NCBI GenBank assembly: GCA_029959285.1
Contig: JASCOE010000001.1
Location: forward strand, 496,001 to 560,000
DNA length: 64,000 nt
Direction of reading: 5' to 3'
From: Flavobacteriaceae bacterium PS02337
GTDB lineage: Bacteria; Bacteroidota; Bacteroidia; Flavobacteriales; Flavobacteriaceae
The notes beneath the pieces are model-generated. The model saw only the letters and a program-made list of their open reading frames with translations. It made no database searches and was not told the origin of the DNA. Both the position numbers and the translations under genes were made by a program. This document shows positions 29,752-55,510 of this stretch, piece after piece. How positions within the stretch are numbered: the first letter of the stretch is position 1; the number at the start of each line of letters is the position of its first letter.

Positions 29752-30495
29752 TTACTTCTTTTCGAAAGCAACTAATGCGTCATATATAACATTTCTAACT
29801 CGATCTTTCAGTTCTTTTCTATGATCGATCGTTAAACCTTCTGTTTCTATAAAAGGTAAAATTCTCGCACGCATTTTACCTGGACTTCCACTCAAAAAAG
29901 TATAAGAAAAACGTTCTTTATTATCGGGAAAAACAATCGGAACAATCGGAATCTGATGATCGATTGCTAATCTGAAAGCACCGTCTTTAAATTCATCGAG
30001 CAAAACACTTTCATCGTCAGGAACGCCGCCTTCAGGAAAAATACAAATACTTAAACCTTGATTTAAACGGCTTTGAGCTCTTTTGAAAACTTCATTTTTA
30101 CTTTTTGATGAATTCCTATCAACCAAAATGCAAGTTCTTTTATAGAAAAATCCAAAAAGCGGAATCTTTACCAATTCTTTCTTTCCAACAAAAACAAACG
30201 GATTTTTAATTAAAGCCAGCATAAGCATAATATCGGTCATCGATGTGTGATTGGCCACAATCATGTAACTTTTGCCTTTAATGAGCTTCTGTTCGCGTTT
30301 TACGATATAATAAAAGCCCATTCCGAAAAGGATAAACTTGGCCCAAATGCGCGCCATTTTAAAAAAATAAGGATAACCTTTCTCTGAGATAATAGAAATC
30401 AGTAAAAAAGGCAACATTATAATAATCGGAACCGCCATTACGACGTAAAACCAAACGCGCCAAAGAATCCAAAAAGCAATTTTTAATATTTTCAT
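29752..30495 (-). CDS. plsC: 1-acyl-sn-glycerol-3-phosphate acyltransferase
   Basis: 247 residues. PlsC transfers an acyl chain to the sn-2 position of lysophosphatidate in membrane phospholipid synthesis. Motif I Asn-His-Thr-Ser-Met-Thr-Asp (HX4D, catalytic His and Asp) is at ~82-88, the Gly-Lys-Lys-Glu-Leu segment at ~105, and motif III Phe-Pro-Glu-Gly-Gly at ~155. An N-terminal hydrophobic anchor spans ~8-35. Its -7 element ends five bases before the ATG (30501-30508), so the mRNA may be leaderless. PlsC-type acyltransferases are often paralogous, so an ornithine-lipid or other acceptor cannot be ruled out. Confidence 0.88.
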   Translation of the reverse strand: MKILKIAFWILWRVWFYVVMAVPIIIMLPFLLISIISEKGYPYFFKMARIWAKFILFGMGFYYIVKREQKLIKGKSYMIVANHTSMTDIMLMLALIKNPFVFVGKKELVKIPLFGFFYKRTCILVDRNSSKSKNEVFKRAQSRLNQGLSICIFPEGGVPDDESVLLDEFKDGAFRLAIDHQIPIVPIVFPDNKERFSYTFLSGSPGKMRARILPFIETEGLTIDHRKELKDRVRNVIYDALVAFEKK

Positions 30496-30500
30496 AGTTT

Positions 30501-30508
30501 CAAAAGTA
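30501..30508 (-). promoter_or_regulatory. -7 element of plsC adjoining the start codon
   Basis: TACTTTTG on the minus strand, five bases before the plsC ATG. No good -33 TTG is seen at the expected distance. The geometry is like that of holB and the HU/SPOR gene. Confidence 0.5.
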
Positions 30509-30556
30509 AGAAAACAGAAATGAATTTTATAAAGATTTTTATTTTCCTTATCTGTA

Positions 30557-30594
30557 GTTTTTTAACGCAAAGTGCACAAAGGTTTTTCGCAAAG
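30557..30594 (+). repeat. Left 38-bp inverted repeat of the GxxExxY unit
   Basis: Begins GTTTTTTAACGCAAAG and ends TTTTTCGCAAAG. It is an exact reverse complement of 31179-31216. Confidence 0.95.
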
Positions 30595-30652
30595 TTTTTT
30601 AAAGTTATTTTTCGTTGATTATTTGCTTTGCTGTAAGTTCGCAAAGCTTTAT

Positions 30653-31030
30653 TTATAAATTATTTGCAACTCTTCTAATACCATTTTTTAAAAGAACTTC
30701 ATTGAAATTTATAAGTAAACCAAGTTTAAAATTTCCTAGTCTTAAATAGGTCAATGTTTGTGCCAAATGGTTAACCGTTAGAGATTCCAAAGCTTTTATC
30801 TCAATTAAGAATTTTTTTTCCACAAGCAAATCTATGCGGTATCCGCAATCCAAATTAACTTCTTCAAAAACTAACGGCAAAGATTTCTCTTTTTCAACTA
30901 AAAGTCCGCGCTGTTTAATTTTGTAAAACAAACATTCTTTATACACATTCTCTAATAAACCTGGTCCAAGTTTTTTATGAATTTCAATAGCTAATCCAAT
31001 TACAATATTTGATATTTCGTTTTCTGTCAT
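30653..31030 (-). CDS. GxxExxY protein, PD-(D/E)XK-like
   Basis: 125 residues of the family named for its Gly-x-x-Glu-x-x-Tyr motif, seen here as Gly-Leu-Leu-Glu-Asn-Val-Tyr at ~24-30. Downstream are Tyr-Arg-Ile-Asp-Leu-Leu-Val (the Asp of a PD-(D/E)XK core, ~67-73) and Phe-Leu-Ile-Glu-Ile-Lys-Ala (the E-x-K, ~79-85), so the nuclease fold residues look intact. The family is widespread in Bacteroidota; its biological role is not established. Its stop lies five bases from the left mini-hairpin, and the whole gene is enclosed by inverted repeats, which suggests it belongs to that unit and not to the neighbouring operons. Confidence 0.88.
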   Translation of the reverse strand: MTENEISNIVIGLAIEIHKKLGPGLLENVYKECLFYKIKQRGLLVEKEKSLPLVFEEVNLDCGYRIDLLVEKKFLIEIKALESLTVNHLAQTLTYLRLGNFKLGLLINFNEVLLKNGIRRVANNL

Positions 31031-31178
31031 AATTCAAAAAAAATATCAAATTTATAAATATTTTCTTATTTTTTATAAAATCAAAATTGACTAAAATCTT
31101 TAAAAATGACTTTTCAAAAGACATCGCTTTGAGAATTTATTGCAAAGCAATAACTCAAAAAAAATTAAAACTTCTTCT

Positions 31179-31216
31179 CTTTGCGAAAAACCTTTGTGCA
31201 CTTTGCGTTAAAAAAC
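31179..31216 (-). repeat. Right 38-bp inverted repeat of the GxxExxY unit
   Basis: Exact reverse complement of 30557-30594. It ends ten bases before the -33 element of trpS. Confidence 0.95.
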
Positions 31217-31225
31217 CAGAGACTT

Positions 31226-31255
31226 TTGTAGTTAAAAAAAACATCACGACATTTG
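31226..31255 (+). promoter_or_regulatory. trpS promoter
   Basis: TTG at 31226-31228, 19-base spacer, GACATTTG at 31248-31255 (one mismatch to TAnnTTTG). The start codon follows 20 bases later. Confidence 0.65.
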
Positions 31256-31275
31256 CATTTCAGAAAAAATCTATA

Positions 31276-32250
31276 ATGGCAAAAATACTTACGGGTGTTC
31301 AAAGTACAGGAACACCGCATTTAGGAAATTTATTAGGAGCAATTATTCCGGCAATAGAATTGTCAAACAATCCAGCAAACGAATCTTTTTTGTTTATTGC
31401 AGACTTGCATTCAATTACTCAAATTAAAGACGGAAAAACGTTAAGAGAAAACACCTATAGCACTGCAGCAGCTTGGCTTGCTTGTGGTTTAAATCCTGAA
31501 AAAGTTACTTTTTATAGACAATCTGATGTAGTGCAAACTACAGAATTAACTTGGTATTTAAGCTGTTTTTTTCCATTTCAAAGATTAACGCTTGCTCATT
31601 CTTTCAAAGATAAAGCAGATCGTTTAGACGATGTAAACGCTGGACTTTTTACGTATCCGATGCTAATGGCGGCAGACATTTTATTGTACGATGCTGAATT
31701 TGTTCCTGTTGGAAAAGATCAATTGCAACATTTAGAAATTACTCGTGATGTTGCCGCTCGTTTTAATCACCAAATGGGTGAAACATTTGTACTTCCTGAA
31801 GCAAAAATTGAGGAAAACATTATGTTGATTCCAGGAACAAATGGTGGAAAAATGAGTAAATCTGCCAACAATATCATCAATATTTTCTTAGATGATAAAA
31901 CGTTACGCAAACAAGTAATGAGCATTGAAACAGATTCAACTCCGCTTGAAGATCCAAAAAATCCAGATACTTGTAATGCTTTTGCTATTTATTCGCTTTT
32001 AGCGAATGAAACTCAAATTGCAGAAATGAGAGCAAATTATTTAGGCGGAAATTATGGTTACGGTCATGCAAAACAAGCTCTTTTTGAATTGATTACAGAG
32101 AAATTTAAAACGGAAAGAGAAAAATATAATTACTATATCAATAATCTAGAAGAAGTTGATGCTTTATTGAAAAAAGGTGCATCAAAAGCTTCTGTTATTG
32201 CTGACGGTGTTTTAGCAAAAGTTAGAACTGTTTTAGGTTTTGGGAAATAA
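31276..32250 (+). CDS. trpS: Tryptophanyl-tRNA synthetase
   Basis: 324 residues from ATG 31276. This class Ic synthetase charges tRNA-Trp. The HIGH-type motif is Gly-Thr-Pro-His-Leu-Gly-Asn-Leu at ~13-20. The KMSKS motif is Lys-Met-Ser-Lys-Ser-Ala-Asn at ~192-198. Asp-Gln and Pro-Val-Gly-Lys-Asp-Gln-Leu-Gln-His segments typical of TrpRS lie between them. An upstream in-frame TTG at 31087 would add 63 residues, but it reads through the inverted repeat and the promoter, so the ATG is preferred. Confidence 0.96.
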   Translation: MAKILTGVQSTGTPHLGNLLGAIIPAIELSNNPANESFLFIADLHSITQIKDGKTLRENTYSTAAAWLACGLNPEKVTFYRQSDVVQTTELTWYLSCFFPFQRLTLAHSFKDKADRLDDVNAGLFTYPMLMAADILLYDAEFVPVGKDQLQHLEITRDVAARFNHQMGETFVLPEAKIEENIMLIPGTNGGKMSKSANNIINIFLDDKTLRKQVMSIETDSTPLEDPKNPDTCNAFAIYSLLANETQIAEMRANYLGGNYGYGHAKQALFELITEKFKTEREKYNYYINNLEEVDALLKKGASKASVIADGVLAKVRTVLGFGK

Positions 32251-55357: not shown

Positions 55358-55458
55358 TTGTCATTCTGAGGAACGAAGAATCACACTAGAAATTCCGTAA
55401 AGAAAATCGCAATCTTTGTCGAGTTACGAGTGTGATTCTTCGTTCCTCAGAATGACAA
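55358..55458. repeat. Perfect 30-bp inverted repeat, MITE-like
   Basis: Arms at 55358-55387 and 55429-55458 are exact reverse complements, with a 41-bp loop. The arm begins TTGTCATTCTGAGGAACGAA. No ORF inside. This GTCATTCTGAGG-type palindrome is, from memory, a dispersed intergenic repeat in several Bacteroidota genomes. Confidence 0.9.
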
Positions 55459-55510
55459 ATTAGGCTCGATTTAACTTTTCAAAAGTTTTAGACTAACAAT
55501 TATAAACACA

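Follow-up and report, generated by a model that had tools for sequence, protein, structure and literature searches.

A GxxExxY nuclease-family gene between mirrored word arrays, a probable gene-bearing member of a REP-like repeat family

Why does a gene of the GxxExxY family lie between two long mirror-image repeats, and do these repeats belong to the gene? The question arises at a locus between putative plsC and trpS genes in a stretch of 64,000 nucleotides (the window) from a genome of 5.70 Mb in 56 contigs. A preliminary description of the window had seen perfect 38-bp inverted repeats around the gene, symmetric 91-bp ends and a mini-hairpin at each, and had proposed a small mobile or mobilisable unit possibly comparable to REP/RAYT pairs. 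The geometry was confirmed throughout: 30557-30594 and 31179-31216 are exact reverse complements, the 91-nt ends 30557-30647 and 31126-31216 align over their full length with small gaps in the spacer, and GCTTTG...CAAAGC marks the inner limit of both ends. The features of the unit and its two site markers are as follows.

29752..30495, minus strand: putative plsC (acyltransferase), site marker outside the unit; open frame, named in the preliminary description
30557..30594, plus strand: left outer arm, inward-pointing words CGCAAAG-CACAAAG-CGCAAAG behind TTTTTTAA; perfect complement of 31179-31216
30595..30624, no strand: left spacer, 30 bases, diverged from the right spacer, with small gaps
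30625..30647, plus strand: left inner hairpin GCTTTG...CAAAGC
30653..31030, minus strand: GxxExxY gene, 125 aa, PD-(D/E)XK nuclease family (TIGR04256 / PF13366; D67, E77, K79, Q91, Y95)
31126..31148, minus strand: right inner hairpin GCTTTG...CAAAGC
31149..31178, no strand: right spacer, 30 bases
31179..31216, minus strand: right outer arm, mirror copy of the left
31276..32250, plus strand: putative trpS (tryptophanyl-tRNA synthetase), site marker outside the unit; open frame, named in the preliminary description

The outer arms are built of iterated 7-bp words (CGCAAAG) behind TTTAAC(C), and with the outer letters included they match over 44 nt at 95% identity. The perfect 38-bp arm match is far above chance expectation; inverted-repeat seeds of 20 nt with a spacer of up to 1.5 kb occur at two sites of the window, the unit itself and near 55.4 kb. 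No Rfam family matched 30300-31400 at E ≤0.1. The named organisms nearest to the GxxExxY gene are Flavobacterium, and trpS was matched in all 81 Flavobacterium-genus genomes. The window also holds a second palindrome at 55358-55459 (TTGTCATTCTGAGGAACGAAGAATC... mirrored, with about 40 bases between the arms), and similar sequence was found within some CGCAAAG elements of the same genome (L012 and L013).

The protein belongs clearly to its family (132.6 bits to TIGR04256, cut-off 35; 131.6 bits to PF13366, cut-off 22). Among 170 aligned members the family residues G24, E27 and Y30 are conserved in 170, 170 and 169, and D67, E77, K79, Q91 and Y95 in 170, 169, 170, 161 and 170, so that the D...(D/E)xK active site in the core fold that defines the PD-(D/E)XK superfamily is present. 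The residues spell D-ExK-QxxxY, which we take to be the motif of RecB/Cas4-type PD-(D/E)XK nucleases, and the helix and strand order of the predicted model is also like theirs; the GxxExxY protein differs from that type in being free-standing, only 125 aa long and placed between repeats, its partners being judged from neighbouring frames only. As judged from the aligned genes the active site is intact and under purifying selection, with a median dN/dS of 0.075 (218 ortholog pairs, dS 0.05-1.5). In-frame stops in 5 of 80 relatives indicate that copies also decay. PF13366 was the only family matching the protein at E ≤0.001, and the unit contains no HUH/Y1 tyrosine transposase; PADLOC and PHROGs likewise gave no family at E ≤0.001. 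A known RNA family, defence protein or phage protein was therefore rejected, there being no Rfam, PADLOC or PHROGs match. Solved structures searched by sequence profile gave no match at E ≤1. The structural matches of the model are not all PD-(D/E)XK proteins, and absence of a given family from the structural fold list is no evidence.

Do GxxExxY genes elsewhere carry the same kind of ends? The window's genome has five matches to the family, four over the cut-off. All four lie between inverted repeats that follow one grammar with different words, with inverted-repeat (IR) scores of 27 to 44.5 against a maximum of 18 in 651 control windows; the words of the paralogues are a CGCAAGG/CGCTAAGG variant at L061, ATTAAG at L062 and CACGAATT at L064. 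The fifth match (L065), sub-cut-off and part of a 389-aa frame, has no such flanks. In a close-relative set of 80 loci found by protein similarity, 37 of the 79 that were testable reached an IR score of at least 20, compared with none of 293 offset windows. Cross-paired flanks of different loci of this set also reached the score in 19 of 79 cases because many of the loci are homologous close relatives, and the set alone thus proves little.

A wider set comprised 142 genes, nearly all of the same phylum (4 from the window's genome, 71 in 70 loci, 61 in 60 further loci and 6 on plasmids); one with a short flank (L305) was dropped, and the remaining 141, drawn mainly from the best-scoring matches listed, do not amount to a random draw. 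Of these 141 genes, 115 show either words on both sides or an IR score of at least 15, as do 6 of 279 control windows, so the kind of ends seen in the window does recur on GxxExxY genes elsewhere. Three or more words of a single class, pointing inward and including at least one on each side, were present at 103 genes and in 4 control windows, and an IR score of at least 16 alone, which is word-free, was reached at 76 genes and in 3 control windows. The word classes were composed after inspection of the data, the identical expressions being run on the controls. Both flank criteria failed at 26 genes, several of which have a word array on one side by eye. The two sides mostly agree in word class: among the 94 of 171 genes with at least two words of a class per side, the class was equal on both sides in 86 (mean 18.4 and maximum 35 when shuffled).

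The window protein as single tblastn query (E ≤1e-5) matched 8 of 72,556 plasmid records and none of 50,697 phage records. Three of six plasmid loci examined passed the same flank test: a Gemmatirosa plasmid (Gemmatimonadota) with a complete CGCAGAG hairpin on each side, a Bernardetia plasmid (Bacteroidota) with words on both sides and an IR score of 18, and the plasmid of Fusobacteria ZRK30 with three GAT-type words and an IR score of only 12. The Treponema (CACGGATTCG / CGAATCCGTG), Persicobacter and Sphingomonas plasmids failed, and spread to other phyla thus rests on few loci. On the Sphingomonas plasmid (L217:2983-3411) short CGCGAAG words lie near the gene, which sits inside a fabD-fabG gene order, both neighbours being annotated genes.

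The ends were found to exist without the gene as well. Used as a query on its own genome, the left end matched 75 times at E ≤10, with an E-value of 1e-12 for the strongest dispersed match, and the double word CGCAAAGNNCRCAAAG occurs 105 times (59 forward and 46 reverse), the reversed control pattern 0 + 0 times. Many palindromes between genes are thus built like the flanks of the gene. By eye, many copies among 29 loci are short palindromes without a gene and some are half elements, and the grammar reads TTTAAC(C), word, two free bases, word, spacer and then the mirror image. Automatic scoring of 60 loci gave 24 distinct paired elements of 76 to 272 bp (median 142.5), of which one overlaps an ORF; TTTAAC-like letters stand outside the first word at 43 of the 48 element ends. 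Inward words form 75 brackets in the loci scanned, namely the window and loci selected for GxxExxY or for such words; GxxExxY lies inside 66 of the brackets, no ORF inside 9, and another ORF of at least 80 aa inside none. No clean empty site for a small element was found when five regions of the window's genome, three of them with a scored element, were compared with 15 stretches of two relatives, and the few comparable orthologous small elements hold their position between species. In 54 Flavobacterium loci no word element outside the unit was found by the criterion used, and these loci therefore offered no polymorphic sites.

At the level of genomes the words correlate with the gene. Of 296 genomes sampled from the phylum, 149 have a TIGR04256 match over the cut-off. 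A word excess (count of the pattern CRCRRAGNNCRCRRAG over its reversed control) of at least 10 was found in 58 of these 149 and in 5 of the 147 without the gene, and an excess of at least 20 in 42 and none, respectively; three genomes with sub-cut-off matches only were counted among those without. Genomes of the same clade are not independent. Relatedness was handled by comparison within families only: among 20 families that include genomes of either kind, those with the gene had the higher median excess in 15 and the lower in 4, and one family was tied.

Words and protein clades are associated. Flanking words differ by protein clade (CGCAAAG, CGCAGAG, ATTAAG, ATATAAG, ACATAG), and they do so also at unrelated loci. 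Across the 81 genus genomes, by eye, the words that flank the L062-type clade (A, in 12 genomes) are of the ACCATTAAG type, those around a second clade are ACCATATAAG and those around a third ACCACATAG; the clade limits were set by hand, at 68% identity for A and 64% for B, plus one genome with a partial match (G344). Word sharing at non-homologous loci fell from 0.73 at 75% protein identity or more through 0.57, 0.41 and 0.22 (steps at 65, 55 and 45%) to 0.05 below 45%. In 75 of 135 cases the closest protein of a different genome carried the same word, compared with a mean of 29 and a maximum of 45 in shuffles; for paralogues within one genome the figure was 16 of 46. This test omitted 36 of 171 genes that have no word class.

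Whole-genome counts followed the same lines unevenly. Clade A genomes were well separated by their own word (AUC 0.91) and poorly by the window clade's word W (0.61) or by B (0.54), agreement was weak for clade B genomes (0.72 for the own word versus 0.65 and 0.59), and genomes of the window clade gave 0.83 for their own word, 0.79 for A and 0.88 for B. That the last are richer in word B than in W is confounded, being a sign of the shared ancestry of large-genome species. The 16 genus genomes without a GxxExxY match have a three-word sum of 0 to 10, and the other 65 reach 209. Single genomes depart from the rule in both directions: B words number 91 in G303, which lacks a clade-B gene, and 0 in G356, G362 and G298, each of which has one; in G365 and G361 the window-type gene is accompanied by 0 and 1 W words.

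Is the unit mobile? We surveyed the plsC-trpS site in 117 loci with the start of trpS, 47 of them picked for the gene and 70 forming a genus sample. All 47 picked loci were filled; in the genus sample plsC was in reach in 66 of 70, and 11 of these 66, the window's genome included, were filled. The arrangement is thus filled in some genomes and empty in others and not a fixed gene order with unconserved ends. At filled sites the gene runs with trpS in 42 cases and with plsC in 16, the window belonging to the latter. The flanking-gene tree (55 rows) requires 10 changes of orientation, at least 7 of them forced by starred branches, whereas the GxxExxY gene tree (50 rows), which is weakly supported with 9 of 47 inner branches starred, requires 2. 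For 25 genomes of a clade with both orientations the flanking tree gave 10 orientation and 9 word changes and the gene tree 2 and 2. Relative to the flanks, oppositely oriented genes are also more diverged (1.60 versus 1.26; 0 of 5000 shuffles). L107 was excluded from both trees and from the 25-genome comparison with its divergence test, L097 from the gene tree and that comparison, and exact duplicates were removed from the trees.

Few changes on the gene tree and many on the flanking tree mean that gene, word and orientation at plsC-trpS behave, by these phylogenies, as a cassette that is repeatedly exchanged at one site. Old shared polymorphism or ordinary short-tract recombination could be an alternative source of the pattern. 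At L104 the outer left words are of the type of the neighbour L067 and the inner words of another type (by eye), as if the exchange joint lay within the arm. In a near relative whose trpS is 97% identical (L224) both ends are present and the gene is absent; in L229 an assembly gap lies between the two ends, so that the gene may be absent from the assembly only, and several other near relatives retain single arms. Between the unit ends of L224 lies a different small palindrome, CACAGATT...AATCTGTG.

Of the small mobile or mobilisable unit first proposed, one part is supported, namely that it changes hands as a cassette at plsC-trpS. Of autonomous transposition no sign was found: filled and empty plsC-trpS sites compared by eye resolved no insertion boundary, no target duplication was found there or between the regions of the window's genome and those of the two relatives, none of the plsC-trpS loci or small-element regions compared offered a clean empty site, the dispersed copies examined have no gene, and this site is filled in other species of Flavobacterium too.

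Gene, words and orientation are coupled, and copies of the ends are dispersed through the genome. We propose, with a probability of about 0.7, that the unit belongs to a REP-like family, as the member that carries the gene, and that its nuclease cuts the words of its own clade and so drives both dispersal and cassette replacement. GxxExxY would be a small RecB/Cas4-type PD-(D/E)XK nuclease that recognises the reiterated words of its clade in inverted arms, which in this unit means CGCAAAG preceded by TTTAAC(C). Cutting at the arms would lead to the element, with or without its gene, being copied or exchanged by repair; the genome would fill with short gene-less palindromes (REPIN-like), and a gene-bearing cassette would replace another at an occupied site. 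Two steps of this scheme are inferred: binding and cutting of the words by the protein, and cutting as the driving force of dispersal and replacement. The whole is best read as a REP-like system run by a PD-(D/E)XK nuclease and not by an HUH transposase. We lean, with less assurance, to the broader view that GxxExxY proteins power a second class of bacterial REP systems, independent of RAYT, in which every clade recognises a word of its own, scatters gene-less palindromes and moves its cassette into occupied sites; this class would be widespread in Bacteroidota and reach other phyla.

The main rival is that the word palindromes have another origin and that GxxExxY is the gene of a homing-type nuclease which uses them as targets. 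Such a homing parasite would fit the replacement of cassettes at one fixed site, the resident-type outer words beside different inner words that we saw by eye at L104, and the many words without a matching clade in genomes like G303; yet genus genomes that have no GxxExxY match are poor in words, and the words follow the protein clade at unrelated loci, and we regard this explanation as unlikely. Homing endonucleases of the PD-(D/E)XK fold (e.g. I-Bth0305I) differ from GxxExxY, which lies outside introns and coding genes and whose targets are apparently a dispersed repeat family.

Phase variation by a unit that flips between its arms, through host recombination or the nuclease, would explain both orientations at one site, but the gene-tree counts and the greater divergence of oppositely oriented genes indicate that different cassettes were exchanged and not flipped, bar one or two older events. 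In-place flipping is thus unlikely given the gene tree, and we give very little weight to an invertible switch. An equally slight chance is left to the palindromes being transcription terminators or mRNA-stability hairpins, with the protein acting on their RNA or unrelated to them. Their intergenic location and strong predicted folding (median z -7.8, with z below -3 in 20 of 22 folded elements; ViennaRNA, with a parameter set that may not be that for DNA) would suit such a role, but among the 21 elements with both neighbours the adjacent genes are co-directional at 15, convergent at 4 and divergent at 2, and coupling to one gene family, clade-specific words and cassette exchange would be left unexplained. 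A terminator role was rejected for this want of convergent bias.

That the repeats are ordinary RAYT-driven REPs with GxxExxY as a bystander is the least credible reading of all, because, although Y1_Tnp matches occur in 210 of 296 genomes and four times in the window's genome, a joint logistic model gives odds for word excess of 16 for GxxExxY and 1.5 for Y1, the Y1 effect among genomes with GxxExxY is not significant (53/129 versus 5/20, p 0.22), and no Y1 gene among 20 fetched loci has these words on its flanks. RAYT as driver was thus rejected, on the Y1 flanks and the regression. Several of the fetched Y1 loci have other inverted repeats, and by eye GGTAG stands beside the Y1 gene in 3 of 6 loci with inspected flanks; these words were absent at the three Y1 loci examined in the window's genome. 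L385-L387 and other Y1_Tnp loci share a genome with the GxxExxY word system, some with inverted repeats of their own.

The nuclease-driven reading has its closest likeness in REP/REPIN-RAYT systems (TnpA-REP, 'REPtron'), where a nuclease-type gene stands between members of a palindromic family whose gene-less copies are spread over intergenic DNA, where paired inverted units fold, and where protein groups co-vary with their repeats, as PMC8266576 and PMC3116915 describe for RAYT. The earlier comparison with REP/RAYT pairs is borne out by the dispersed copies with the same ends, by like ends on GxxExxY genes elsewhere and by the coupling of protein and word. The enzymes differ (PD-(D/E)XK nuclease here, HUH/Y1 there), and so do the repeats, iterated 6-8-bp words behind TTTAAC(C) in contrast to one stem-loop tagged GTAG or CGTC; in the passages seen of PMC3733652, GTAG-tagged REPs with RAYTs appear as a known system. 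No GTAG or CGTC tag was found at the repeat ends, which carry the TTTAAC-like letters. Since the organising idea is like REP/RAYT and the enzyme class and repeat grammar are unlike it, this would be a new kind and not a new member. MITEs and insertion sequences share terminal inverted repeats and short non-autonomous copies with the unit, which differs in having no transposase gene, no target duplication that we saw and arms that are clade-variable word arrays.

No link between GxxExxY and repeats appeared in the titles and abstract openings of the matches listed, mostly from outside subscription journals, or in passages of PMC3733652, PMC12306157, PMC8934634 and PMC12085832; PMC9756366 contains PF13366. 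Our results suggest a nuclease-and-repeat partnership alongside the known REP/RAYT one. They give a testable role to an abundant family of unknown function, present in half of the sampled genomes of the phylum, and may explain where many of the palindromes between Bacteroidota genes come from. Should the nuclease act on these words, evolution would have combined REP-like repeats with two unrelated enzyme chemistries, and the words that differ by clade would offer matched protein-DNA pairs, a natural series in which to decode how a nuclease of 125 aa recognises its DNA.

Two further observations were made at single loci. On a contig titled Candidatus Nitrotoga (L144), plsC, trpS and dprA are adjacent as in Flavobacterium, with identities to the window's genes of 77% for plsC and 67% for dprA, and by this likeness the contig is probably misbinned. 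At L417:18307-19627 (G350:C1) word elements recur about every 220 bp, apparently as tandem units, and the run matches the position of a single 66-bp element in the window's genome (L408).
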